Positions 7,177 to 25,320 of a DNA stretch of 28,846 nucleotides are shown piece by piece. Location of the stretch: IMG/VR virus record IMGVR_UViG_3300021170_000060, positions 1-28,846 of that record; one strand, written 5' to 3'. The position numbers and the translations under genes are program-made. Numbering within the stretch: position 1 is the stretch's first letter; every line of letters begins with the position of its first letter. Under the pieces are notes generated by a model. It was not told where the DNA came from, ran no database searches, and worked only from the letters and a program-made list of their open reading frames with translations. The DNA comes from a virus.

Positions 7177-8802
7177 CTACGTCACCGTTACTGAAACATT
7201 AGCCGCATTGTAAACGGGCTCTTGGTTAATGTTAACAGCAACGAGAGTCAAGCTTGCAACAGCAGTCGTAAACAGCTGTCCAACCGTGACCGCGCCACTC
7301 ACGGTGGTTGCCTGACTTGTAACGTACACCCCCGTCCCGCCGACCGAGCCACTGGATTGGCTTAGAATGGTTGTTCCAATAGGAATACCAGCCCCAGCGA
7401 TTATATTTCCTGCCTGAATTATACCCGTCAGAGCCGTAACCGTCAGTAATGTACCAGACCCAGTTGCGGTACAAGTGCCTCCAACGGTCTGGGAGTTACT
7501 GACTGTGTAGGTACCTGAACCTCCGGCTCCAGTCCCCAGCGCGGTAATCTGCGTTCCGATAGAAATGTAGCCAGAGCCGTCCGAAAGTGTCTGTCCAACT
7601 CCAAGCGAACCTGATGTCAGAGAAGTTGCTGTTAAGGTAGTTCCAGAAATGCGTCCAATCGCAATTGCGGAAGCTGAATTGTTCGAACCCAGCTGGAGAG
7701 AGCGTATCTGCGCCCAAGAACCTAGCGCCTGGATGACACCGAGGTAGCGCGTAGCTAGAAGTACCGAACCAATCCGCGCTCGCGGTCCTCCGTCTGCTCC
7801 GGTAAAGGCTGTGGCTAACGCTACTTGTATCAACGATACTGCATTAGCGGGAACAAGCGGCCCTGTAACAATATTGACAGAAAACAGAATTGCCAGAGTA
7901 CTAGGTATCTGGAATGACACGGTATATGAAGGCAGAGGAGGACTGTACCCAGAGTTAGAATCAAAGACCGTAACCGTGGTGGTACCTGTGTAACCGCATC
8001 CTGGTGCCTTCTTGGACCAGATCGCCTGAGCTACAGCAGTTGCTGAACCTCCAACAGCAGCAACATAAAGCGAATTTGGGTTGAGGGTGACCCCTCCAAG
8101 AGTCAACGTGCCATTAGTCGAATTTTCAGTGACGTAGGCATCTAAGACACCCGTAACATTGAGCACAGCCCCTAGTACAGAAGGCAGAGACCCAATCGAA
8201 TTGAGAGCAACAGACTGCTGTCGTCGGGTCTCGAACTGAGCTCTGGTCTCGGTTGCTCGGCCAATAACGCCCGAAACAACTGTGACCGAATCCCACCCCG
8301 GAATGGCTTGGTAGATTGAAACTGCGTTAGTGCCGGGAACAACCGTAGGACCAGGAACTGTGCACGCAAAGGAAAGCGTTACTGTTCCACTAATCCCTAT
8401 CGCCCCGGAACCCGTACACGTATAGAGGTTATTGGCAGTGTCTACAATCGTTGCCCCAATAGGGATAGGAACGCCTTGGGCTCCAGTACATAAAATCTGA
8501 AGTGTGGTCGGTTGTGAAGGAAGCCGATACAGGAAATAGATACGAGCAATCGCATCCTGCATCCGCCCAGAAGCGAGTGCTGGGTCAACCTGGTTGGCAT
8601 AGTACGTGAAGAGGGAATCAACATTGCCAATGATAGATGCAAAACTGGTAGCGAGCTGCCCTTGGGGAGTCGTCAGACTCGGGTTGAGATTGCCTCCAAA
8701 GGCAAGATTGAGGTCGGCTTGAACACCCGCAAGGATAGCTGCTGAAGAAGGAGCAACGAATCCGTTGGAACTGAAGGTCGGCGACGGAACGGAGGTTGCC
8801 AT
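7177..8802 (-). CDS. Baseplate wedge protein J-like with two inserted Gly/Thr-rich beta modules (541 aa)
   Basis: Baseplate_J features are clear: N-terminal GVQADLNLAFGGNLNPSLTTPQGQLATS, the central Q-A-IPGWDSVTVVSGVIGRATETRAQFETRRQQSVA stretch (residues ~165-199), and ENSTNGTLTLGGVTLNPNSLYVAAVGG. It would form the wedge arms that move during sheath contraction. Near the C-terminus the fold is interrupted by two tandem 60-residue modules (about residues 387-446 and 449-508) of the type LTVTAL..G.L.VGQ...G.G...GT.I, described separately. The last 30 residues resume normal J-type sequence. GGAG lies 6 nt before ATG 8802. Confidence 0.88.
   Translation of the reverse strand: MATSVPSPTFSSNGFVAPSSAAILAGVQADLNLAFGGNLNPSLTTPQGQLATSFASIIGNVDSLFTYYANQVDPALASGRMQDAIARIYFLYRLPSQPTTLQILCTGAQGVPIPIGATIVDTANNLYTCTGSGAIGISGTVTLSFACTVPGPTVVPGTNAVSIYQAIPGWDSVTVVSGVIGRATETRAQFETRRQQSVALNSIGSLPSVLGAVLNVTGVLDAYVTENSTNGTLTLGGVTLNPNSLYVAAVGGSATAVAQAIWSKKAPGCGYTGTTTVTVFDSNSGYSPPLPSYTVSFQIPSTLAILFSVNIVTGPLVPANAVSLIQVALATAFTGADGGPRARIGSVLLATRYLGVIQALGSWAQIRSLQLGSNNSASAIAIGRISGTTLTATSLTSGSLGVGQTLSDGSGYISIGTQITALGTGAGGSGTYTVSNSQTVGGTCTATGSGTLLTVTALTGIIQAGNIIAGAGIPIGTTILSQSSGSVGGTGVYVTSQATTVSGAVTVGQLFTTAVASLTLVAVNINQEPVYNAANVSVTVT
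7279..7458 (-). repeat. Gly/Thr-rich beta module, second copy in baseplate J
   Basis: Encodes about residues 449-508 of the J-like protein: GTLLTVTALTGIIQAGNII, GIPIGTTILSQSSG, GGTGVYVTSQATTVSG. It shares the T-V-T-A-L start, the G-T-x-I centre and the G-T-G-x-Y end with the other copies. Confidence 0.72.
7465..7644 (-). repeat. Gly/Thr-rich beta module, first copy in baseplate J
   Basis: Encodes about residues 387-446 of the J-like protein: TTLTATSLTSGSLGVGQTL, GYISIGTQITALGTG, GGSGTYTVSNSQTV. It is followed with almost no linker by a second, more diverged copy, suggesting internal duplication. Confidence 0.78.
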
Positions 8803-14148: not shown

Positions 14149-15936
14149 TCACTGTAAGGCGACGCTGGAAAGCGCAAGTGACTGTATCGAGCCACGGTCT
14201 AGATACCAGAATGTGCAAGGTGGTGTAGTCCGCGAAGCTCTCGCTGTGGACGCAGCCTGCAGGATCTGAAGATAGTATCCCTGGGTCTGTAGCGTTGTCG
14301 CGATGTTCGCCCCCGCTTGGGCGCTCACGGCCGCGATTTGCGAAGCTGAGATCGTTCCGGGTGCGAAGGCACCAAAGTTCAGCCCCGCCGCGATTTGTGG
14401 TTGCAAGGCAGATTCAATCAGCGCCGCACCAGAAGTCGTATACGGGATGGACTTGGCATTGTTCTGCAGATTCAGGAGCGCGATCTGGAAGCCATTATTG
14501 AGCCAAATCTGGTTGATGTAGCTATCAAACCAGGTGAAGGCTCCCGTCACAGTTCCGCGCTGAAGCCAGTTGAAGTTCTGGTTGGCCGCACCAACAGCAC
14601 CAAAGTAGTTGTAGCCATTGCCGAAGCTACCAGCAACACGCGGGTCTCCACCAAGGTTGATTGCCGTAGTAGGGTCGGTCACATCCGCAACAAGACCAGG
14701 CTGGTTACGGAAGGCGAAGGTAGTACGGCCATTAGTCTGCGTAAAGTCGATCGAAGCCGCCGCACCGCAGACAAACGCGGCCATATTGAGATCTGTAAGT
14801 TCGGAGATCACAAACGTACCTGAGTCTCCATTGCCCGCTAAAACCTGCCCAAGACTTGCAGTGGCCGGCACCGTTGACCGGGGTGAAGCGTCTGTGTCCC
14901 AACAGACATAGGCATAGCGGTTATTCTGCCCGTTCTTCCAGGCGGCGAAGGCCTGCTTCACTGTGTTACCTGAACCACCGTCAGGGTCGAAAGCGGTCAT
15001 GAACGTGACCCAATTCGTGGTCAGCGTGATGATATTGTTCATGAACGTAGCGGGGACGGCGGCTCCTGTCCCCTGGGACAAGACTGCACCAGTTGCAAGC
15101 GTAAGCAGCAAGTTAGTAGCCAGCGCCCCAGAGCCAAACGTGATTGTGGAGCCACTCCCCGTCGTAGAGGAGGCTATCGTAAAGGCTCCAGAGACACTGT
15201 CGTAGGTTACCGCTGGCGCGAAGGCTGTCATCGCCGCGCTGAGGGCGCTTTGCGAGGTATTGACCTGATAAGTCCCTGTTCCCCCTGCAGCGCCCGTGAG
15301 CTGTGATACGATGTAGGTCCCTAGGGTTACCCCCGTCCCCTGGATGACCTGCCCTACGCCTAGAGTACCCGAAGCTAGGGCTGTGACAGTCAGGGTGGTT
15401 CCAGCCCCTCCGCCCGTACCCGAAGCCCCGATCGACCCCGTCAGGGTCGCGGCCTGAGCGCCCTGGATCAACAGACCGTTGTTGATGATCTGAGCCACAT
15501 TGGAGAACGAGGTCGCAGAAGCCAGACTGATGGAAGCGGTCGTCAACGAACCATTGATCGTGAGCCCTAGATTGCCTGAATACCCCTGCAACGTGGCGAG
15601 CGGTAAGGCCGAGATGTTACCGCCCCGTAGGTACGCCGCGACAGAAGCTGTATTATATTGCGCGAATAGGAGAGTAGCTGGCAACTTATTCGAATTGGTA
15701 AACCCACCAAAGTATCCAGATCCCTTTCCAAGGCCTCCCCCCGCAATAATCGCTTCTTGCGAAGTTGCGCCAAAGAAGCTGGAGACGGCAAGGACAGACG
15801 AGAAGCTCGCGACCGTTCCAATAGGAACACGCGTATTGTTCGTGAGTACAAGCGCGGTGATATCTAGCGCCGTACCGCCCACGCTAAGGACAGAGGGCGT
15901 GACTTGAGCGAAAAGATTTGCAGGAATGCTAGACAT
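14149..15936 (-). CDS. Tail sheath protein, DUF3383-like, with inserted beta module (595 aa)
   Basis: The contractile outer tail protein. N-terminal LTNNTRVPIGTVASFSSVLAVSSFFGATSQEA and KLPATLLFAQYNTASVAAYLRGG match the DUF3383 sheath pattern, and the region from residue ~245 (VTYDSVSGAFTIAS...) continues it. The C-terminal ~80 residues (INQIWLNNGFQIALLNLQNNAKSIPYT... IALQPQIAAGLNFG) contain the handshake/polymerisation part. Between about residues 165 and 237 a Gly/Thr-rich module is inserted that also occurs in baseplate J and the tail terminator gene. AAGGAG lies 8 nt before ATG 15936. The sheath is evidence for a myovirus. Confidence 0.87.
   Translation of the reverse strand: MSSIPANLFAQVTPSVLSVGGTALDITALVLTNNTRVPIGTVASFSSVLAVSSFFGATSQEAIIAGGGLGKGSGYFGGFTNSNKLPATLLFAQYNTASVAAYLRGGNISALPLATLQGYSGNLGLTINGSLTTASISLASATSFSNVAQIINNGLLIQGAQAATLTGSIGASGTGGGAGTTLTVTALASGTLGVGQVIQGTGVTLGTYIVSQLTGAAGGTGTYQVNTSQSALSAAMTAFAPAVTYDSVSGAFTIASSTTGSGSTITFGSGALATNLLLTLATGAVLSQGTGAAVPATFMNNIITLTTNWVTFMTAFDPDGGSGNTVKQAFAAWKNGQNNRYAYVCWDTDASPRSTVPATASLGQVLAGNGDSGTFVISELTDLNMAAFVCGAAASIDFTQTNGRTTFAFRNQPGLVADVTDPTTAINLGGDPRVAGSFGNGYNYFGAVGAANQNFNWLQRGTVTGAFTWFDSYINQIWLNNGFQIALLNLQNNAKSIPYTTSGAALIESALQPQIAAGLNFGAFAPGTISASQIAAVSAQAGANIATTLQTQGYYLQILQAASTARASRTTPPCTFWYLDRGSIQSLALSSVALQ
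15226..15444 (-). repeat. Gly/Thr-rich beta module, copy in tail sheath
   Basis: Encodes about residues 165-237 of the sheath, with the pattern LTVTALASGTLGVGQVI, G.GVTLGTYIVSQL and GGTGTYQVNTSQS. It is the same protein module as the copies at 7465-7644, 7279-7458 and 16296-16481, but divergent at the DNA level. Likely a surface-exposed decoration domain inserted in a loop. Confidence 0.75.
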
Positions 15937-15977: not shown

Positions 15978-16682
15978 TCAGGGAACGCGGATGAGTGTGA
16001 CAGAAACAATATCGGCAAATTGCTGCGAAATCGAAACCACCTGATTCGCCTGCATGCAGGCTTCTACGATCCAGCGATCTTCCATCTGCTCCTGGTCTGA
16101 GATGAAAACCACCTGCTTAGGATCGTCTGCGTATAGAGGTGTAACATCAAACCCAGAAGTCGCAAATTGATTGAGCGCGTAAGAATCACGAAACGTAGTA
16201 CTGATAATGGAAGCGTTATCAGAACTATTTGGACCATGGCAGTCCAACTGTATGGTCCACTCCGTTGGTTGCATTAATGCCTGCAAGCCTGCTGCCATGA
16301 TCTGGCTAGGCGTTGCAGCGGTTCCGTTAAGCTGGTAGTTCCCCGGACCCCCTGTGCCCCCTGCCGAAGCAACAATGGTGAGCGTACCTGAAAGCCCGAT
16401 GCCGAAGACCTGAGCCCCAACCGAAATCTTCCCGATGCTTATGGAATTGACGGTGAGAATATTACCGGCGATGGAAGCGTTGAATAAGCAGTCCGCAAAA
16501 CTGTCTACATTAGTCTCAAGGCGCTCTTGCCGCAGCGGCGTCATCATTACGAAGTCAGCACCAACGGGTTCAGCAACCCGGTTGACCTGAGAACGCAGAA
16601 CGTCAACGCCAGGGGGGAGAACACTCAGAAGATAGCTACGTAACACCGTGAAGATATTGGACTGATTCGGACTGACGATCAA
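15978..16682 (-). CDS. Tail terminator / neck protein, LIC_12616 (gp12-like) family (234 aa)
   Basis: N-terminal FTVLRSYLLSVLPPGVDVLRSQVNRVAEPVGADFVMMTPLRQERLETNVD (residues ~11-60) is the signature of this neck/terminator family. The C-terminal half resumes it with WTIQLDCHGPNSSDNASIISTTFRD and VEACMQANQVVSISQQFAD. The middle carries one of the shared Gly/Thr modules. It would cap the tail tube and sheath at the head-proximal end. The start codon is a TTG (16682) that overlaps the upstream stop as TTGA. No clear ribosome binding site is present, so translation probably depends on coupling. Directly upstream of the sheath gene. Confidence 0.82.
   Translation of the reverse strand: MIVSPNQSNIFTVLRSYLLSVLPPGVDVLRSQVNRVAEPVGADFVMMTPLRQERLETNVDSFADCLFNASIAGNILTVNSISIGKISVGAQVFGIGLSGTLTIVASAGGTGGPGNYQLNGTAATPSQIMAAGLQALMQPTEWTIQLDCHGPNSSDNASIISTTFRDSYALNQFATSGFDVTPLYADDPKQVVFISDQEQMEDRWIVEACMQANQVVSISQQFADIVSVTLIRVP
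16296..16481 (-). repeat. Gly/Thr-rich beta module, copy in tail terminator protein
   Basis: Encodes about residues 68-129 of the 234-aa protein: AGNILTVNSISIGKISVGAQV, GIGLSGTLTIVASAGG, GGPGNYQLNGTA. It is the most diverged copy, but the order of short motifs is the same. Confidence 0.62.
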
Positions 16683-17398: not shown

Positions 17399-17586
17399 TC
17401 CCAATTCTCACGAGAGGCTTGTTCTTGTGCATCAAGCCCTATAGCAAGTTTCTGTTCGGTAGTTAATGTGTCCCAAATTCTACGAACATTCTCACCAACA
17501 TAATTACGCCAATCATGAACACGCTCGGCTTTTTCCCAAAGCGGCGGGTCAGACAAAGGGGGAATAAGCACATCAGCGTCAGTCAT
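17395..17586 (-). CDS. Small hypothetical protein (63 aa)
   Basis: Begins MTDADVLIPPLSDPPLWEKAERVHDWRNYVGENVRRIWDTL. The preferred ATG at 17586 shares one base with the stop of the radical SAM gene (TGATG), and an in-frame GTG lies three bases earlier at 17589. The rest is helical and charged (TTEQKLAIGLDAQEQASREN). It overlaps the next gene by 4 nt. No motif is recognised. Phage genomes often carry such a small Trp-rich helical protein near neck genes. Confidence 0.6.
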   Translation of the reverse strand: MTDADVLIPPLSDPPLWEKAERVHDWRNYVGENVRRIWDTLTTEQKLAIGLDAQEQASRENWE

Positions 17587-20018
17587 CACGCAGCCTCAAG
17601 GAGTTTACGCTTCAGCTTGAAGCTCGTCATCTTCTTGATCTCTTCAACCGCACCTGAACCAAACTTGTGTTCAATTGAACAGAGATACTGTGGGTTGGTA
17701 AAATAGGTCTGGAATGCAGCATCACGGAAAGCTAGAACCTGCTTAGCAGAAAGATATTGTGTGGAAAGCGGGAGTGTATCTTCGCCATGTTGGCTGAAAC
17801 CACTCCAAGTCTTGGGTAATTCAATCCCAGCCTTGACAGCTTCCTCATAGAGCTTGGAACCCGGATATGCTTGACATGCGTAAAAATTGGCGAACTCGGT
17901 ATTCAGTTCTAGTGAGAGGTTCAAAGTAGCCTGCATAGTACTATAATCATCATCAGGCAGGCCGAAGATATAATTCCCAATAACGCAAATACCGGCACGC
18001 TGAATTCTCCGTACCACATCCACAATGTCGTCGGTCTTGAGCGCCTTGAGCGCACCGTCGCGTACATGTTTGCTCCCCGACTCGATACCAAGTGCCAACC
18101 AGCGGAAGCCCGCCTTGTGAAACATCTCCAGGGTGTGAGGCTTGACGGTGTCAACTCTGGCATACGCCCAAATGTTGAGCTCGGGACCAAGGCCAGTAGC
18201 AATCAGCTGCTTGCAGATTTCTGTGTAGTGACGTTCATTGAGCACAAACATCTCATCAACGATCTTGAAGGTCTTAACGCCATAGCGTTCGTGAAGCATA
18301 ACGATTTCGTTGACGACTTCGGTCGAGTCACGCATACGATATTTGTTAGATTCAAACGGCGCGTTTATGCAACAGAACGAACAATTTTTAACGAGTACAT
18401 TGTTTGCAAAGAACCAGCCCGTTGCTGGAACAGTTAAGCAATAAACATCATCACGATTTGGGAGCCTTCGAACGCTCATAACTCGATGGTTAGTTTCTCG
18501 GCGCTGACTATGCGGGTCAAAGCCCTTACGCCCTCTGATATCGGAGGAATTGCGAGGGCCGTTGTAACTTCGATAAGGCTCACCATTAACAGGTGTCCAC
18601 CAACAATACCCTTTTGCCTCTCGAGCAGTGGCTGCAACTTTAAGCTTCTCAATATACGCAGGGTCTTGGTTACGAATATGCGCAGCCCTTCTATAATTAC
18701 GGCGTGAAGCAGTAGAACGCACCAGCCCCGTAACCCCGACACTTATATTTTGCCGCCATTCTGGGGTTATTCCATCTTTCGCGGGATTATTATCTCGCAT
18801 ACGTTGCGCAACTTCGGGGTGGTGCTGTAGATGTTCTTTTCTTGAGTCCAAGACTAGCAGATTGTCAGGGTCGTCGTTACTTGGGATATGGTCCAAATGA
18901 TGCACAAATTCATTATCCTTTAGCTTGCGCCCTAATTTGTATTCCATAATCAATCGAGCGCGATACGCAGAGCCGTGATTCCCCCAATGCAAACTAACTC
19001 TAACTCTACCAGCTTTTACACCTCCTTCTAATCGAAGAGCTCGGACATGAGCACCTTTCTTCAAATCCTGAGCTTCACACTCCCACTGCTTGCCTTTAGA
19101 CCCAACCCTACCATTTCCCCACTTAAACTGCAAAAATTTATGATCTGGTGTACAGTCAATAAAAGTCCCATCATCAAAATAGACCCGGACCAACTGTTCG
19201 CGTTCCCCGTATTTACGAATACGAACCGAATCGGTGATAAAAACATCACGAGTCTCAGGGTCGTACGTATACACCGGAACGCCACCATCTCCGTATTTCT
19301 CCGCAAGTTCCTTGATTGGGATATCTCCATAAATTGTATTTACCGTAGTATCTCCAGACAAACACTTGAAAGAACAGCCTAATGAAGTCATGATTGAGGC
19401 ATATGGCTGGCGGGAAGACCCATCCAGGCATTGCCAATTATGTGCTCGGTACTTATTCATTGGGAGCAAGTCCCAAGCGTTACCGTGCAAATCCTTCATG
19501 TCAATTAGTGGGGCGGAAGGGTTTACGTAAGTATGATCTCCATCTCGCCAAACTAGACCGGGAATCTTTTCCGTCTCGGTTCCACCTAGCAAATTGGCAA
19601 TTGTTACAGGGCCTTCCCCCACACAGGCGAAGTCAATGGATTCTTCCTTCATTGTACGTTGTGGAAGGGCGGAAACGTGTCCGCCAACCATGATGATGGG
19701 AATTTGATCGTAAAACGGTATGTCCTTGAACGCCTTTGCAACTGCTCCCGCTCCAGCCATTTGCTGCGTAGAAGCAGAAGGTTGATGACCATAAACCGCG
19801 ATACAGATCAAGCGCGGGCGGGGTTCAAGATGAGCAGCCAAATCCGCAGGGCGAAGACCTTCCGCTTCCGCGTCTACGATCTTGACATTAAATCCTCGGT
19901 CACGAATGTAGCCAGCAATTAGGCGACACCAAAGTGGGGGTTCGCATGCGACGAGGTTGGGGTCAAGATCACCGTAAGCGGTAGAGCTAGGAGGATTGAT
20001 TATAAGCAAATCTAACAT
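17586..20018 (-). CDS. B12-binding radical SAM enzyme interrupted by an HNH intein (810 aa precursor, 483 aa after splicing)
   Basis: Residues 1-~145 form a cobalamin-binding-type Rossmann domain (LLIINPPSSTAYGDLDP; ICIAVYGHQPSAST; IIMVGGHVSALP). The radical SAM core starts at GCSFK (Cys215) and resumes after the intein with CSFCC (Cys546, Cys549). After splicing it reads GCSFKCSFC, a perfect CxxxCxxC [4Fe-4S] motif. Later core strands are visible (FKIVDEMFVLNERH; WAYARVDTV; ALGIESGS; GNYIFGLPDDD). Family members do methylation, ring or carbon-skeleton chemistry; the substrate is unknown. The gene follows a DUF4177-like gene with zero spacing and sits with sugar-type enzymes, so a role in sugar or lipid modification is inferred. 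Without splicing the iron-sulfur site cannot form. Confidence 0.88.
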   Translation of the reverse strand: MLDLLIINPPSSTAYGDLDPNLVACEPPLWCRLIAGYIRDRGFNVKIVDAEAEGLRPADLAAHLEPRPRLICIAVYGHQPSASTQQMAGAGAVAKAFKDIPFYDQIPIIMVGGHVSALPQRTMKEESIDFACVGEGPVTIANLLGGTETEKIPGLVWRDGDHTYVNPSAPLIDMKDLHGNAWDLLPMNKYRAHNWQCLDGSSRQPYASIMTSLGCSFKCLSGDTTVNTIYGDIPIKELAEKYGDGGVPVYTYDPETRDVFITDSVRIRKYGEREQLVRVYFDDGTFIDCTPDHKFLQFKWGNGRVGSKGKQWECEAQDLKKGAHVRALRLEGGVKAGRVRVSLHWGNHGSAYRARLIMEYKLGRKLKDNEFVHHLDHIPSNDDPDNLLVLDSRKEHLQHHPEVAQRMRDNNPAKDGITPEWRQNISVGVTGLVRSTASRRNYRRAAHIRNQDPAYIEKLKVAATAREAKGYCWWTPVNGEPYRSYNGPRNSSDIRGRKGFDPHSQRRETNHRVMSVRRLPNRDDVYCLTVPATGWFFANNVLVKNCSFCCINAPFESNKYRMRDSTEVVNEIVMLHERYGVKTFKIVDEMFVLNERHYTEICKQLIATGLGPELNIWAYARVDTVKPHTLEMFHKAGFRWLALGIESGSKHVRDGALKALKTDDIVDVVRRIQRAGICVIGNYIFGLPDDDYSTMQATLNLSLELNTEFANFYACQAYPGSKLYEEAVKAGIELPKTWSGFSQHGEDTLPLSTQYLSAKQVLAFRDAAFQTYFTNPQYLCSIEHKFGSGAVEEIKKMTSFKLKRKLLEAA
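18384..19364 (-). mobile_element. Intein with HNH homing endonuclease inside the radical SAM CxxxCxxC motif (327 aa)
   Basis: Spans precursor residues 219-545. Block A: Cys219 with CLSGDTTVNT. Block B: T-x-x-H as TPDH (290-293) within DCTPDHKF. Block F: DVYCLTVPATGWFFANN, ending in the C-terminal VLVKN with terminal Asn545 and Cys546 as the +1 nucleophile. The penultimate residue is Lys, not the usual His. An HNH_3-type endonuclease lies between (VHHLDHIPSNDDPDNLLVL, His373/His374, Asn381, Asn386), followed by a basic region that may bind DNA. All residues for class 1 splicing are present except the penultimate His, which many active inteins also lack. The DNA boundaries follow the Cys219 and Asn545 codons. 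Confidence 0.9.
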
Positions 20019-20180
20019 TCAATCAACCCTACGCTTGAAATAAAACCGCTCGAACAGTCCAGGCCCGCTCATGAAAATCATTACAGTAACAAGTTCCCAC
20101 CCTTGATTTCCAAGGTGGCCTAAATCAACCGTAACCTTGCCAACGTTCTGAGTTTCAACTTTGTATTCCCAACGCACCAT
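20019..20180 (-). CDS. DUF4177-like small protein (53 aa)
   Basis: A short gene found by translating the gap between the epimerase and radical SAM genes. It starts MVRWEYKVETQNVG, continues LGHLGNQGWELVTVMIF and ends FERFYFKRRVD, which matches the DUF4177 pattern (W-E-Y-K-V, LN-LG-GWELV, YFKR). Its ATG shares a base with the epimerase stop (TAATG) and its TGA is directly followed by the radical SAM ATG, so the three genes are translationally coupled. The molecular role of DUF4177 is unknown. Confidence 0.82.
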   Translation of the reverse strand: MVRWEYKVETQNVGKVTVDLGHLGNQGWELVTVMIFMSGPGLFERFYFKRRVD

Positions 20181-21109
20181 TACACATTTCCATGTACTGT
20201 ATTTCGCAACATCTGGTAGCCTTTGATTAGCTCTTCAATTCCTTTGTCGAGAGACCATCGCGGTCGCCACCCGGTTGCTTCAAGCTTAGCGTTGGACACA
20301 GTATAATCTCGCTTATCCGTGTCTTCACCGATGGGTGACTCAAGGTATACAAAACCGGGAACGTGCTTCTGGATACGTTCGCATAATTCACGCTTGGATA
20401 AATTAGCATCGGAGAGCCCTACGTTGTAGATCTGACCCTTCATCTTGGTGAAGCGATAGATCCCTTGTGCAAAGGCAGCAACCACGTCACGGATGTGGAT
20501 GTAGTTTCGCTTAAAATCAGCTTCGAATAGAATTACAGCTTTGTCTTTCACAGCACGATAGGTTAGGTCGTTCACCAACAAGTCCAAACGCATTCTAGGA
20601 GCCATTCCAAAAACGGTCGCCAATCTAAGGCTGATAGAGTTCCCACGCTCCATCACAATCTTCTCAGCCTCAACCTTAGTCCGACCGTAGAGGCTGATAG
20701 GGTTGAGCGGGCTCTCCTCCGTACATTCCTTTCCAGGCTCACCAATACCATACCCACTATTTGAAATCGGGATGATTATGGCTTGGCTTTTGGACATGTG
20801 AAGCAGAGCTTCACGGATAGCACCAACATTCGTACTCTGTGCAGCTTCCTGGTTCCGGTCGCACAGCGGTGCGCCAACAAGCGCGGCTAGTGGGATGAAG
20901 ACATCGTACCCCTTGACGATCGAAATGACCCGTGGGTCGCGAGCGTCCCCATTTATAACTCGGAAATTTGGGTCGGAACAGAGCGCATTGAGCGGGGTCT
21001 GACCGTACATGAAATTATCGATGACGGTAACTTCATTCCCATCAGCAAGTAAGGATGGAACAAGGACACTTCCTAGATAGCCGGCTCCCCCGGTGATAAG
21101 ACACCGCAC
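20180..21109 (-). CDS. NAD-dependent epimerase/dehydratase, extended SDR family (309 aa)
   Basis: A nucleotide-sugar-type short-chain dehydrogenase. The N-terminus has the NAD-binding GGAGYLG (residues 7-13) after the strand RCLIT, then an acidic end of strand 2 (VTVIDNF) that favours NAD(H). The catalytic Tyr141 and Lys145 are in SLYGRTK, and Ser in PISNSGYG completes the triad. I start at GTG 21109, because GGAG lies about 9 nt upstream and the family begins right at this point. A GTG at 21124 would add five residues and overlap the HNH gene. It most likely epimerises, dehydrates or reduces an NDP-sugar made with the PLP enzyme upstream; the substrate cannot be read from sequence. Confidence 0.88.
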   Translation of the reverse strand: MRCLITGGAGYLGSVLVPSLLADGNEVTVIDNFMYGQTPLNALCSDPNFRVINGDARDPRVISIVKGYDVFIPLAALVGAPLCDRNQEAAQSTNVGAIREALLHMSKSQAIIIPISNSGYGIGEPGKECTEESPLNPISLYGRTKVEAEKIVMERGNSISLRLATVFGMAPRMRLDLLVNDLTYRAVKDKAVILFEADFKRNYIHIRDVVAAFAQGIYRFTKMKGQIYNVGLSDANLSKRELCERIQKHVPGFVYLESPIGEDTDKRDYTVSNAKLEATGWRPRWSLDKGIEELIKGYQMLRNTVHGNV

Positions 21110-21111
21110 TT

Positions 21112-21666
21112 TCAAGCACTCCACCGAATACGAGCATTACTTTTACCTAAACAACTATAAGAACAACATTTAGCAGTACGTTCCCTAGCTGGATTTATCC
21201 AAAAGCTGGCCCCACACTCTTCGCAAAATTTTTCAATCTTACTTGATTTTCGAGGGTGTTTCCAAAAACATCTAAGAGAACAAAATTTACCGCGTCCCTC
21301 TTCCCGAGCACGCCACCCATCAATCTTAAAAGGTTGCTTACATTCAATACAGATAAATTCGACTAACTTTAATCCCTTTGGATTGTGATGGTGCGCGTGT
21401 TCTACATGGTGAATGTCAATTTCTTTGCCAACAATGACTTCACCAGTATTTAACCACCAAACAACACGAGAACGCAACGCCCCAGGAAATTTGCCTTTTG
21501 TATTTATACAAACTCTTCCGCTCTCTTTACCGAGGGACCCTCCTTGAATAAAAATACCTAGCTTCTTAGCCAGACGAATTGTCTTAGCATCAACTCGCCC
21601 TACTGGAGTATCACAAGGCGCAAAGTACCCCTTGCTCGTACGTTTTCGTTTTTCCCAGCCAGCCAC
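21112..21666 (-). CDS. Free-standing HNH endonuclease with two C-terminal zinc ribbons (184 aa)
   Basis: Start is GTG 21666 with GGAG 7 nt upstream. The N-terminal region (residues ~10-65) resembles the strand-rich part that precedes HNH in phage homing endonucleases. The HNH core is IDIHHVEHAHHHNPKGLKLVE (about residues 83-103). Two Cys4 ribbons follow: Cys106/109/129/133 and Cys148/151/168/172, presumably for target DNA binding. It lies between a membrane peptide gene and the epimerase, whose ribosome binding site is embedded in the last codons of this gene. Local GC is visibly lower than in the epimerase (about 37% against 55% in adjacent 60-bp samples), which suggests separate acquisition. 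Confidence 0.82.
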   Translation of the reverse strand: MAGWEKRKRTSKGYFAPCDTPVGRVDAKTIRLAKKLGIFIQGGSLGKESGRVCINTKGKFPGALRSRVVWWLNTGEVIVGKEIDIHHVEHAHHHNPKGLKLVEFICIECKQPFKIDGWRAREEGRGKFCSLRCFWKHPRKSSKIEKFCEECGASFWINPARERTAKCCSYSCLGKSNARIRWSA

Positions 21667-21708
21667 TCAAACTCTCCAATCTATCAAAATCCTCAAACAG
21701 AACCCCTA

Positions 21709-21804
21709 TCAAGGTGTAAAGAACGGATGAACCAGAGCGTAGGCTGCTCCATAGATGATCAAGAAATAGAGAGTAATACCAAGAAAGCGCACGAAGGTAA
21801 GCAT
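21709..21804 (-). CDS. Single-helix membrane micropeptide (31 aa)
   Basis: Encodes MLTFVRFLGITLYFLIIYGA then AYALVHPFFTP. One hydrophobic helix covers most of the peptide, with Arg near the N-terminus. The ATG overlaps the stop of the 112-aa gene (TGATG), so translation would be coupled. The peptide may be a membrane anchor or simply an expressed short ORF. I have no family for it. The remaining bases up to the HNH gene (21667-21708) hold that gene's ribosome binding site. Confidence 0.45.
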   Translation of the reverse strand: MLTFVRFLGITLYFLIIYGAAYALVHPFFTP

Positions 21805-22142
21805 CACTTTCCCATCGCGAGACGATATTCAAACGAACGATTCTCGCACCACTCCGCCCAAAGCATCTGATCACCAACGACAGAAATTTTATCGTCAGCC
21901 GTTATCAACAGATAACACCAACGAACATTACGCTTGGAAGTCTTGACCCAGATGCCACCATTGACCTTACGAACTAATTCAGCATGAACAGGTTTGGTCT
22001 CACCTTGAGCGGCACAAACTACGAAAGCAGATATGCGGGAACGCTCCGGCATTACAATAATTTCAGATTGAGGAAGACTTTCCCATCCGCCAGGATTGTA
22101 ACTTGCCCAAAGCTGGATAATACTCCGAGGTTGACACTTCAC
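21804..22142 (-). CDS. Hypothetical protein in the sugar cassette (112 aa)
   Basis: Start GTG 22142 overlaps the stop of the PLP enzyme gene as GTGA. Sequence: a Trp-containing N-terminus (IIQLWASYNPGGWESLP), a central beta stretch (EIIVMPERSRISAFVVCAAQ; HAELVRKVNGGIWVKTS), and a C-terminus with WCYLLITADDKISVVGDQMLW. It is predominantly beta and neither secreted nor membrane-bound. I do not recognise the family. Tight coupling to the dehydratase-type gene suggests a shared job, but nothing in the sequence shows which. Confidence 0.6.
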   Translation of the reverse strand: MKCQPRSIIQLWASYNPGGWESLPQSEIIVMPERSRISAFVVCAAQGETKPVHAELVRKVNGGIWVKTSKRNVRWCYLLITADDKISVVGDQMLWAEWCENRSFEYRLAMGK

Positions 22143-23299
22143 ATCAAAACCTTCTTCATCACCGCAACTGCCCTCTCAATCTTATCAGAAATATCAAAAG
22201 GAGCGTTACCGATAAAAAGTCCGGTATCATGGATTCGATCCGCATTTGGGGTAGGGTACTGCTCACGCCAGGGAGCTCCGTAGAGATGGCGTGTAAAAGA
22301 GCCGCCCGTGGGGAGCCGACTATCAATTCCCTCCTCAGCGAGGCTCGCAACGAGCTTGAGACGGGTCTCAGACGAATCGACCGTAAAGGGGAGGCCAAAG
22401 GGGCTTGGATCCAGGGAACGAATGACCTGGAGCTTGATAGGAAGGTCTTTTGTCAGCTCTCGGAAGAGGATGAGGTTCTTCTGGCGCGCTGCGATAAAGC
22501 CTTTGAGCTTCTTCAGCTGCTCACGCGCAATAGCTGCATGCATTTCGACAGGACGAAGGTTGTAACCGAAGTGCGTAAAACGATAGCTGTCATCAAAGCT
22601 GGTCGGTGGTTCGACATCGCGGGTCCAACCATGCGCCCGTAGAATACGGCAGAGCTTGGCACACTCTGCGTCATTGGTCAGAACCATTCCTCCCTCGATT
22701 GCGCTAATCTGGTGCGAATGAAAGAAGGAGAACGAACTCATCAGCCCAAAGGTGCCACATAGATCGTTAGCGTGGTAGGCACCGAGGCTCTCACAGTTGT
22801 CCTCGATGAAGTACCCACCGTGAGACTCGATTGCAACCTTGAGGAAGTTCAGTGGCGCAGGATTACCTAGGATGGAAACACCAACAACAAGGCTACTGCC
22901 AGCGACGTCAGGAAGGTCAGAACACCAAGTAGCATCACAGTCCACCACCTTAAGCCGGAGACCGTATTGCAGAAGCGGCGCATACGTAGTGCTCCAAGCT
23001 AGAGCAGGAACAATAACCTGGTTTCCACGCTTAAGGGGTTGGTCTTTCTTGGCGAAGAGCGCGGCAATCATGAGCAAGTTGGCGGAACTGCCAGAGTTGC
23101 AAGCTATGCCGTACTTCATCTTGTGGAAGCCGGCAAACTCCTCCTCGAAGGCTTCGACCTCTGGGCCCATCGTGAAGCGGCCGGAAGTAATTACTCGCTG
23201 AATCGCGTTATATTCGTGCTCGTCCCACTCCGAAAATGCTGTTGGAAAGACCCACTTGGAATCAGGTTGATGCCAATTCAATTTTACGCGGTCGTGCAT
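22139..23299 (-). CDS. DegT/DnrJ/EryC1/StrS-family PLP enzyme with His at the catalytic Lys position; likely NDP-4-keto-6-deoxysugar 3-dehydratase (386 aa)
   Basis: A full-length fold-type I PLP enzyme. Asp167 (IEDNCESLGA) would contact the PLP pyridine nitrogen. The usual SF..xK..GEGG motif here is SFFHSHQISAIEGG: His196 sits exactly 7 residues before GG, where aminotransferases have Lys. This substitution, together with LRAHGWTRD and GYNLRPVEMHAAIAREQLKKL, is characteristic of GDP-4-keto-6-deoxymannose 3-dehydratase (ColD) and of CDP-sugar 3-dehydrases. No C-terminal [2Fe-2S] cysteine set is visible, so it is closer to ColD. The expected reaction is removal of the C3 hydroxyl, giving a 3,6-dideoxy-4-ketosugar. 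The ATG overlaps the stop of the 55-aa ORF (TAATG). Confidence 0.88.
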   Translation of the reverse strand: MHDRVKLNWHQPDSKWVFPTAFSEWDEHEYNAIQRVITSGRFTMGPEVEAFEEEFAGFHKMKYGIACNSGSSANLLMIAALFAKKDQPLKRGNQVIVPALAWSTTYAPLLQYGLRLKVVDCDATWCSDLPDVAGSSLVVGVSILGNPAPLNFLKVAIESHGGYFIEDNCESLGAYHANDLCGTFGLMSSFSFFHSHQISAIEGGMVLTNDAECAKLCRILRAHGWTRDVEPPTSFDDSYRFTHFGYNLRPVEMHAAIAREQLKKLKGFIAARQKNLILFRELTKDLPIKLQVIRSLDPSPFGLPFTVDSSETRLKLVASLAEEGIDSRLPTGGSFTRHLYGAPWREQYPTPNADRIHDTGLFIGNAPFDISDKIERAVAVMKKVLM

Positions 23300-23466
23300 T
23301 AATCCCTCAAATTCTTTACGTCGCCATCTCTAATCCAACCGTTGCTTTTTCCTGTATCGCAATTCAATAATTTCCCCCATTTACCTTCGCTAGCTCTCAA
23401 AGCTTGTAGAGCTTCCTTAGGCTTATCAAACTTGCCTAAAGACTTATAAGAACCGCCTTTTAACAT
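23299..23466 (-). CDS. Small AP2-like ORF, possible endonuclease remnant (55 aa)
   Basis: Encodes MLKGGSYKSLGKFDKPKEAL... and ends WIRDGDVKNLRD. The stretch LGKFDKPKEALQALR...GKWGKLLN resembles the second half of an AP2 DNA-binding domain (LGxFxxxxEAxxA...LN), as found at the C-terminus of phage HNH-AP2 homing endonucleases. GAGG lies 9 nt before ATG 23466, and the stop overlaps the PLP enzyme start (TAATG), so it may be expressed and used for coupling. A 20-base piece (23372-23391) matches the NUMOD3 endonuclease gene (24917-24936) at 17 positions. It could be a decayed endonuclease or a small regulator. Confidence 0.55.
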   Translation of the reverse strand: MLKGGSYKSLGKFDKPKEALQALRASEGKWGKLLNCDTGKSNGWIRDGDVKNLRD

Positions 23467-23705
23467 GAATTAAAGCCTCAAACAAAAAGTACCTCCAGAA
23501 TTTATTGGTGGGATTTAACGGCTCCCACCCGGCCCGGTCATCTGTATAATCCCCTTAGCTGGCAGGGTCGGCTATGACCATCACCTTAGCCACCGTGAAG
23601 GGGTATTCTCCTGATGAGGTTTCAATTCGTCTTCGGCTTCCTGTCTGGCGCTGCCTCCTCTTGTTAGAGTTGCAACATCGACAAATCAACCATACGACGC
23701 AAGTT
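23467..23705 (-). ncRNA. 239-nt non-coding stretch with extensive pairing potential; candidate structured RNA
   Basis: No convincing gene covers this gap between the thiamine-enzyme beta gene and the small AP2-like ORF. Reading the minus strand I find a 7-bp hairpin GGTGGGA/TCCCACC with a 9-nt loop (23529-23507). CCCCTT (23603-23598) can pair with AAGGGG (23556-23551), and GGTCAT (23579-23574) can pair with ATGACC (23541-23536); the last two cross, giving an H-type pseudoknot. GGCAG (23655-23651) can also pair with CTGCC (23565-23561). GC content is higher than in the neighbouring small ORF. Options are a cis-regulatory leader of the sugar genes, a mobile-element-associated RNA (HEARO/omega type) or an intron remnant. 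I could not match it to a family. Confidence 0.45.
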
Positions 23706-24233
23706 TCAATTGCCGTAAAGCTTCAACTCTTCCACCAATAACGTAGAACCTTCACGTTCCATTGCAGCCTTGTATTCTGACACAATGAGGTCTTCCCGCC
23801 AGAGGCTGACTACTTTCACGGTCTTCAGCATTAAGCGGTAGGCCTCAGTAAATTCCCCACCAAGGTGTTGTGGACCAGGGTCAAGAGGCTGATTTGTAGC
23901 AACGGCAGTGCGGATAATGACCTTAGGCCGGTAGCTTGAGAATAGTGGCAACTTATCTAGATGGAGGACTAGCTGAGATGTTGCGAGTAACAAAAAATTC
24001 CAACGTGGATAGATGCAGACAGGTAGGTCGCCATTCAAGCTTGCACCAATTGCAGCGCCAAGCTGCATGTCTTCGGCGACGGGCCACTCAACCTTCTTAT
24101 ACTCCGGAACGTCGCGGAGCGTATTGTGCATCGACGTGCCCGCAGACGCTACCGCCTGGCCTAAGAAAATGCTGCGAGGGTGCTCGCTCAACATTTTCAT
24201 AGCCAAACACAACTGCTCAAAATACGCTGACAT
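23706..24233 (-). CDS. Thiamine diphosphate enzyme beta subunit (transketolase pyrimidine-binding domain only) (175 aa)
   Basis: Matches the pyrimidine-binding half of E1-beta/transketolase: IFLGQAVASAGTSMHNTL, then VEWPVAEDMQLGAAIGASLNG, where Glu54 is the conserved residue that activates the aminopyrimidine ring of the cofactor. It continues LPVCIYPRWNFLLLATSQLVLHLDK and ends LLVEELKLYGN. The normal C-terminal transketolase domain is absent, so this is half the usual E1-beta length, probably natural since the ending is intact. It would pair with the alpha subunit encoded 42 bp upstream. The pair may transfer a two-carbon unit to a ketosugar. There is no strong ribosome binding site at ATG 24233. 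Confidence 0.82.
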   Translation of the reverse strand: MSAYFEQLCLAMKMLSEHPRSIFLGQAVASAGTSMHNTLRDVPEYKKVEWPVAEDMQLGAAIGASLNGDLPVCIYPRWNFLLLATSQLVLHLDKLPLFSSYRPKVIIRTAVATNQPLDPGPQHLGGEFTEAYRLMLKTVKVVSLWREDLIVSEYKAAMEREGSTLLVEELKLYGN

Positions 24234-24275
24234 TTACAGTTTTACGTCCGCCCCTACAAAGGAAACCATACGGAG

Positions 24276-24869
24276 CTAGAAATTTACACGAACGCCCGCA
24301 CCCGAATGCGGGAATGGAAGCGTATAAAAGTATTCTTCGAATTTGTCAGTATAGTGCGGAGATTCGTATTCGCCCCAAACCTGCCCCGTGTCTGTACAAA
24401 CCGATTTCATATTGTTTTCCACGAAAAACTTGATTGGCAAATCCCAATTTGTAGCGTACTTCAAGCACTCATGATACATACCACCATGAGCCGTCATATC
24501 CCCCAGGAACGCAAAGACCTTCTCTTTACCGCCACTGCGCTTTATCGACCAGGCAATTCCAAGTGCGATAGGTAGGTTACCCCCTACAATTGCACTGGAT
24601 AGGAACCTGTACTCAGGGAAACATAAACAAATCGAACGGCCGGCCATGATCTCGGCTTTGACCTTAACCGGAGGGATCCCGCACAAGAGTGCCTTGTAAT
24701 GAGAACGCCACGAGCAGCAAACCCAGTCTCCAGGACGGTACTCCTGGAATATCTTGATCAACTGCTTCTCATTCCCGCCGTCCAAATGTATTGGAGCACG
24801 TATTTTGCCAGCATTGAACTCGGCGGCAATATCAGCCTCGAACGCGATGAGTTCTTCAACAGTTAGCAT
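24276..24869 (-). CDS. Thiamine diphosphate enzyme alpha subunit (E1-alpha/transketolase N-terminal-like) (197 aa)
   Basis: Residues 23-30 (IRAPIHLD) and 46-56 (PGDWVCCSWRSH) match the start of E1-alpha proteins. The diphosphate/Mg-binding motif is GDM(123-125)...NN(152-153), the GDGx~27NN motif with Met in place of the third Gly. The chain ends soon after (PHSGAGVRVNF), much shorter than the usual 320 residues. I start at ATG 24869 because the family begins there, although no good ribosome binding site precedes it. An upstream in-frame start at 24935 would add 22 unrelated residues. The start lies inside the last codons of the NUMOD3 endonuclease gene, so expression may depend on translation through that gene. 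Confidence 0.82.
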   Translation of the reverse strand: MLTVEELIAFEADIAAEFNAGKIRAPIHLDGGNEKQLIKIFQEYRPGDWVCCSWRSHYKALLCGIPPVKVKAEIMAGRSICLCFPEYRFLSSAIVGGNLPIALGIAWSIKRSGGKEKVFAFLGDMTAHGGMYHECLKYATNWDLPIKFFVENNMKSVCTDTGQVWGEYESPHYTDKFEEYFYTLPFPHSGAGVRVNF

Positions 24870-25320
24870 TAGTACCGTACTTACCGTTTTTACGTGTCTG
24901 GTTAATCCAGTTAGTATTCCCCAATTTACTTTCACTCATTCGGGCGCGGTGCTCTTCACTAAAATTACCACCGTACATTGGATTTAACGGACCCATTTTA
25001 CCCTTACTTTGTTTTTGTTTAGTGCTCTCCTTATGAGTACGCCCCAACCAACGGAGACGAGCCTTCTCCTTATTTTCAGCGGTGTGTCTCAATTCACGGT
25101 GGTTCTGTTCGACAGAAATTATTCTTACGTTCCCTACCTTGTAAGGCCCCTTGTCGCCAAGTCGAGCCATACAGTACTGACCCTTATGTTTACCCGCGTT
25201 CTCCAATTGCCCTGAATCAGTCCAAATCTTGAGCCATTGCTCAAACGTAAGAAGGAATGGAATACCCCGACCCTTTGAATTTGCTCTATGTTGCTGAAAT
25301 CTACGAAGGGGTATTGGCAT
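24856..25320 (-). CDS. HNH-type homing endonuclease with NUMOD3-like DNA-binding repeats (154 aa)
   Basis: ATG 25320 shares one base with the stop of the gene before (TAATG). Residues 18-75 (GIPFLLTFEQWLKIWTDSG...QYCMARLGDKGPYKVGNVRIIS) match a recurrent phage endonuclease core in which the last strand and the GN-V-I element resemble an HNH fold. Residues ~97-135 (KESTKQKQSKGK... NFSEEHRARMSESKLGN) contain two NUMOD3-type helices used for site recognition. The gene is AT-rich (about 33% GC in the sampled 60 bp at 24961-25020). It overlaps the alpha-subunit start by 14 bp, as if inserted exactly at the 5' end of that gene. Confidence 0.78.
   Translation of the reverse strand: MPIPLRRFQQHRANSKGRGIPFLLTFEQWLKIWTDSGQLENAGKHKGQYCMARLGDKGPYKVGNVRIISVEQNHRELRHTAENKEKARLRWLGRTHKESTKQKQSKGKMGPLNPMYGGNFSEEHRARMSESKLGNTNWINQTRKNGKYGTNANC

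Follow-up and report, generated by a model that had tools for sequence, protein, structure and literature searches.

What kind of element splits the catalytic motif of a phage radical SAM enzyme, and how could it come to lie there? The question is posed by the one radical SAM gene in a 28.8 kb viral record from IMG/VR (28,846 nucleotides, referred to here as the window), whose cluster motif is interrupted by 327 residues. The answer we favour, and hold to be very probable, is that these residues form a class 1 HNH intein of almost exclusively viral occurrence, which is bound to the radical SAM motif and has moved between orthologous as well as non-orthologous phage genes.

The gene (17586..20018; like all its parts, on the minus strand) encodes a B12-binding/radical SAM protein of 810 amino acids with the intein inside. 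Its N-extein (residues 1-218, 19365..20018) terminates in ...TSLGCSFK, with the first cluster cysteine, C215, at position -4, and contains a B12-binding domain (residues 25-143, 19590..19946; PF02310, E 2e-13, over the Pfam cut-off). The C-extein (residues 546-810 and the stop codon, 17586..18383) carries the radical SAM core, which matches PF04055 on its own (E 2e-10) and within the whole reading frame (E 5e-11, from residue 545, over the Pfam cut-off). Residues 219-545 (CLSGDT...NVLVKN) fall exactly on 18384..19364, where the original prediction had located an HNH intein in a phage B12-binding radical SAM enzyme; Pfam and NCBIfam profiles bear out both the element and its host, with Intein_splicing, HNH_3, B12-binding and Radical_SAM all over their cut-offs. 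The junctions can be read to the residue and lie between K218 and C546, as proposed, and C546 (18381..18383), the second cysteine of CxxxCxxC, is also the +1 nucleophile. Joining the exteins yields 483 amino acids carrying CSFKCSFC, that is, CxxxCxxC, and the lengths anticipated for product (about 483 residues) and intein (327) are correct from the sequence. The precursor scores under the equivalog cut-offs of HpnJ (TIGR03471, 137 of 578 bits) and BchE (TIGR02026, 113 of 481 bits); judged by these profiles, the enzyme is related to both but is neither of them.

The splicing domain was recognized by Intein_splicing (PF14890, E 4e-13, 49.8 bits against a Pfam cut-off of 35.8) and by intein_Nterm (TIGR01445, 46.0 bits against an NCBIfam cut-off of 24.5), the latter with Cys at position 1 (C219, 19362..19364). 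The match to intein_Cterm is weak (TIGR01443, E 0.12, 12.7 bits, under the NCBIfam cut-off of 15.6). Between the splicing halves lies an HNH_3 homing endonuclease motif, VHHLDH..N.P.NL....H (residues 355-392, 18843..18956), in which HH.D..N..NL is conserved (PF13392, E 1e-7, 31.6 bits against a cut-off of 24.8) and which also matches phage HNH PHROGs. Block B contains the expected TxxH (T72-P-D-H75), preceded by a cysteine in IDCTPDH (C289, intein C71; 19152..19154), and block F a further cysteine in VYCLTV (C527, intein C309; 18438..18440); in the 17-row family alignment A2 the TPDH residues, Cys1 and both block cysteines are invariant. The intein closes with Asn directly before the nucleophile (N545|C546). 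A penultimate His in block G is common in class 1 inteins without strictly defining them; the window copy has Lys there, the residue varies within the lineage, and His is present in L023, L024, L026-L028 and others. Many class 1 inteins have Asp at the block F position where the window has Cys, and the role of block F is treated in PMC10663303. The window copy, having Cys1 in addition to the block F Cys, is not of class 3, whose inteins lack a position-1 nucleophile and initiate splicing at the block F Cys. Judged from its sequence, the 327-residue segment is a class 1 intein by every feature tested save the penultimate His.

Structure prediction agrees with this assignment. An AlphaFold2 model of the precursor, built from a 29-row alignment, reached a mean pLDDT of 83, with low confidence in residues 470-506 after the HNH motif. 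Its residues 217-548 resemble HINT/intein structures such as the NrdJ-1 split intein (Z 22.7, rmsd 1.6, 145 residues aligned), and the exteins match B12-type radical SAM folds across the intein gap, with AprD4 nearest (Z 29.4, 405 aligned) and AprD4, MgmA, OxsB and TsrM together at Z 25-29. By domain content and modelled fold, the exteins are of the B12-binding radical SAM type, with predicted cobalamin binding.

The search for intein-free alleles that the original prediction had called for was successful. A viral scan with the joined extein returned 12 loci. Seven viral contigs (L002-L006, L008, L009), 57-68% identical, carry an uninterrupted CxxxCxxC, and four others (L007, L011, L012, L013) hold an intein at the same position as the window. 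Full-length intein-free bacterial homologues are found on plasmids (57% identity, 100% covered), among them one on an Azospirillum plasmid (57% identity), adjoining GDP-fucose synthase, kinase and NUDIX genes, and another on a Solidesulfovibrio magneticus plasmid (45% identity, 99% covered); a plasmid search with the intein alone gave no match. Because empty alleles of the same gene exist, the 327 residues are an insertion rather than a domain of the enzyme. Beside the intein-free gene of contig L003 we observed a GIY-YIG endonuclease reading frame just downstream (L003:7802-8419, plus strand), which may encode a homing endonuclease of the free-standing kind adjacent to that gene.

A second enzyme, characterized by CxFCxWP, offers all allele types side by side: empty alleles (L082, L083), a full HNH intein (L021) and an in-frame mini-intein of 140 residues that lacks the HNH part (L029, L030), with 85-97% identity in the flanking DNA among these types. 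The ends of the mini-intein are nearly identical to both ends of the L021 intein, and L071 has a second, separate mini-intein. If splicing is needed throughout, one expects just such copies, in which the endonuclease has been lost in frame while the two splicing halves persist. These alleles also bear on the view that the segment is no intein at all. It would then be either an accessory domain fixed in the enzyme or a degenerate insertion that does not splice and leaves the gene inactive. In favour of this view one may cite the window copy, which lacks the penultimate His and whose splicing is a prediction. A fixed domain, which had been named as the finding that would contradict the intein, is ruled out by the empty alleles, as close viral relatives and bacterial homologues have the motif uninterrupted. 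Degeneration fits poorly with splicing residues and an open reading frame retained in nearly every copy, with mini-inteins that dropped the HNH part in frame while retaining both splicing halves, and with the conserved cluster cysteines of the exteins. We regard this view as barely conceivable.

The window intein is one member of a lineage confined to the cluster motif, and not the single oddity that it had seemed. Relatives were gathered by profile-guided scans with the intein, after which the exteins were read; the viral contigs are metagenome assemblies. The lineage comprises 23 non-redundant inteins from 25 viral contigs (window included) and one contig of a metagenome-assembled genome (MAG). 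All 23 occupy one site, with Cys-x-x-x before the junction and Cys-x-[FY]-Cys after it, a restriction that may be overstated, as the scans relied on short conserved peptides and could miss divergent relatives elsewhere. The C-exteins match PF04055 in 21 of 23 cases. The exteins represent at least 12 radical SAM families and form 12 groups, about 16-34% identical between groups: the window's own (window, L007, L011-L013, L017, L020, L024, L071), the CxFCxWP group (L021, L029, L054, L062) and ten with one member each. An independent DNA scan for an N-junction within the motif recovered 13 viral contigs, each of which the set already contained. Scanning 84,980 bacterial and archaeal species genomes gave one match, the MAG contig MGYJ01000025.1 (L044 / L112, 7606 b), and when 398 genomes of the MAG's phylum were searched with a profile, this contig alone was found again. 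Its neighbouring genes include no clear phage gene, and the contig may represent either a bacterial copy or a piece of phage DNA that was binned with the MAG.

Within the lineage Cys1 is kept in 22 of the 23 members, the remaining one, L068, having Pro. This copy (L068:2998-3756, plus strand) also has SPEH for TPDH, retaining the block F Cys and the terminal Asn, and is either dead, misassembled or spliced by a class 2- or 3-like route. In L062 the position of the block B Cys is taken by Phe. The same scans also returned more distant HNH inteins (L031-L041) in portal-like and other proteins; they are of the same broad HNH type, and some of their genes apparently contain two inteins.

How the element came to occupy so many enzymes can be judged by comparing the inteins with their exteins. 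An ordinary allelic homing intein, spread among orthologues only after one ancient insertion that preceded the divergence of the radical SAM families and was followed by many losses, would account for the ordinary class 1 blocks and HNH domain, for the usual gain and loss that empty alleles display within families, and for the tendency of inteins from one extein family to group together. Across families, however, likeness is greater among inteins than among exteins, the opposite of what vertical descent predicts. Near-relative inteins (58-64% identity) sit in exteins that are 22-28% identical, as in L018 and L011 (inteins 64%, exteins 25%), L024 and L027 (60% and 23-25%) and L022 and L021 (58% and 27%). 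Moreover, the inteins of the window's extein group do not form one clade, an arrangement rejected with an AU p of 5e-6, and of 7e-7 without the long mini-intein row. Two of the smaller incongruences are weak: placing L018 outside the core gives p 0.038, and placing L022 outside the second (CxFCxWP) group p 0.15. Purely allelic spread thus appears quite improbable, and because the intein tree departs from the extein families, we infer that the element moved between non-orthologous genes along the catalytic motif.

For this motif-bound intein we propose the following course. Cys1 would attack the carbonyl of K218 to give a thioester, the +1 Cys, a future cluster ligand, would receive the N-extein, the C-terminal Asn would cyclise, and ligation with amide formation would restore CSFKCSFC, the same succession of thioester, transfer, cyclisation and amide steps that is established for inteins (PMC10663303). 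As the second cluster ligand is supplied by the +1 Cys, the precursor is expected to lack a complete, correctly spaced ligand set, and the [4Fe-4S] cluster would form only in the spliced 483-residue enzyme; the earlier reasoning that the ligand set is completed only by splicing is supported by the profiles, the empty alleles and the predicted fold. The putative endonuclease would cut the motif-encoding DNA of empty genes, as suggested by the presence of that domain, by the empty alleles and by the confinement to one site. By this presumed route the element would pass between orthologous alleles and also into non-orthologous phage-borne radical SAM genes, since in many radical SAM enzymes the motif DNA encodes similar residues (G-C-P-[YF]-x-C-x-F-C). 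A weak lead on the target is the glycine codon before the motif, which is GGA at 12 of 20 occupied sites against 5.3 expected from the genes' own codon usage (p 3e-4, noticed post hoc), and at 7 of 27 empty sites against 6.8 expected; in the window's own extein family the count is 2 of 7, which is not significant.

Could splicing also respond to oxygen or iron, as had been suggested from Cys1, the +1 Cys and the block F Cys? All three are present, and the alignment of 17 sequences shows no variation at Cys1 or at the block F Cys. In a redox- or iron-gated switch, disulfides among C215 (-4), Cys1, C289, C527 and C546, or a bound metal, would hold the precursor until conditions suit the oxygen-sensitive enzyme. 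Such gating is a speculative addition that is compatible with the motif-bound intein, and we think it rather unlikely. It would draw on the invariance of Cys1 and of the block B and block F cysteines in the 17 rows, on an insertion that places cluster cysteines at -4 and +1, and on the MoaA intein of Pyrococcus abyssi, which, in the passages of PMC10663303 and PMC3922620 that describe Callahan et al. 2011, is redox-trapped, blocked by a disulfide between Cys(-3) and Cys1. Yet the spacing in the window is -4 instead of -3, the invariance may reflect catalysis alone, and the block B Cys is not obligatory, given the Phe of L062. The combined notion of a motif-adapted element, with an endonuclease that reads cluster-motif DNA in any gene and with splicing coupled to redox state or iron, seems to us similarly doubtful; if true, the element would act as a switch for the maturation of many unrelated radical SAM enzymes in phages.

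Comparison with known systems qualifies the statement that insertion into a radical SAM catalytic motif is unusual: insertion at active sites is typical of inteins, and there are precedents in MoaA and in NF038136 (intein-containing Rv2578c family radical SAM protein). Compared here by description, the intein of P. abyssi MoaA likewise lies in a radical SAM enzyme near cluster cysteines, and an extein Cys near its N-junction can pair with Cys1; it differs in belonging to an archaeal cellular gene and in having the extein Cys at -3, a position suggesting that its junction precedes the third cluster Cys. Members of the lineage align to the NF038136 profile over a stretch that runs from the motif ahead of the junction as far as the +1 Cys. 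This residue is at profile position 335 in each of four cases, and the two insertion sites are probably the same, although the scores are weak (16.9 bits for the window and 28-39 bits for L018, L027 and L044, against a cut-off of 700). An actinobacterial plasmid record searched for the NF038136 junction gave no match. The highest-scoring named intein-containing family for the intein part is NF052663 (intein-containing RctB family protein) at 44-92 bits, far under its cut-off of 1050 bits and with an RtcB-related instead of a radical SAM host.

Among phages, inteins in P-loops and similar sites, for example in mycobacteriophage TerL (PMC5050341), are comparable to the lineage in being phage-borne and placed in the catalytic motif of a superfamily. 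The enzymes described there work only after splicing and the endonucleases are active; among the tabulated hosts are terminase, nucleotidyltransferase, methyltransferase, ThyX and others, with no radical SAM enzyme. The dCTP deaminase intein of Aphanizomenon phage CL131, which spliced in E. coli (PMC6293099), shares the HintN and HNH_3 layout of the window and is 30% identical to a part of the window protein, but host enzyme and site are different and the similarity is too low to place it in the lineage. Campylobacter phage IBB_35 was considered as a precedent and set aside, as the paper names radical SAM proteins and inteins in different genes. Inteins in catalytic motifs, including those of phages (PMC5050341), and inteins in radical SAM enzymes (MoaA, NF038136) are thus already known. 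In the open-licence literature on inteins with radical SAM, MoaA or Rv2578c we found no description of this lineage, and a phage-borne lineage that tracks one cluster-motif position through many radical SAM families appears to be new.

The surroundings of the gene give some indication of its role. On the same strand are tail sheath, baseplate, tape measure and head proteins, and a nucleotide-sugar cassette (20180-24935, minus strand) adjoins the radical SAM gene. It contains an NAD-dependent epimerase (20180..21124; PF01370, E 9e-25), a DegT/DnrJ/EryC1 aminotransferase (22139..23299; PF01041, E 4e-59) and two reading frames (23706-24233 and 24276-24935) that resemble the halves of a thiamine-diphosphate (transketolase/E1) enzyme (PF02779 under cut-off, PF00676 E 4e-13). 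The intein-free phage contig L003 has the same order of DegT, epimerase and radical SAM genes, followed by tail genes. The cassette resembles the cluster on the S. magneticus plasmid, where the radical SAM homologue is accompanied by NUDIX, kinase, E1 and transketolase, GDP-fucose synthase, DegT, epimerase and nucleotidyltransferase genes. Because the plasmid homologues sit in similar sugar gene clusters, the phage enzyme probably belongs to a borrowed surface-sugar (surface-glycan) pathway. The nearest solved fold is that of AprD4, a diol dehydratase of the radical SAM type whose substrate is an aminoglycoside; the match is one of fold only. Elsewhere in the window, three structural proteins, all on the minus strand, share a recurring Gly/Thr-rich module some 70 residues long (LTVTALTSGSLGVGQ...GGTGTYTV, phrog_21413/38233): the baseplate (7177-8802), the tail sheath (14149-15936) and a third (15978-16682).

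For annotation, the lineage is a warning: a radical SAM gene that carries an intein can easily be mistaken for a broken one. It also extends the range of inteins in phages, which colonise metabolic enzymes in addition to replication and packaging genes. Across many enzymes of a single superfamily, alleles with a full intein, with one lacking the endonuclease or with none constitute a natural series, well suited to testing how inteins jump between non-orthologous genes, by way of a codon stretch fixed by catalysis. Likewise, the roughly twenty natural precursors whose splicing nucleophile is also a cluster ligand are suited to tests of oxygen or iron sensing.
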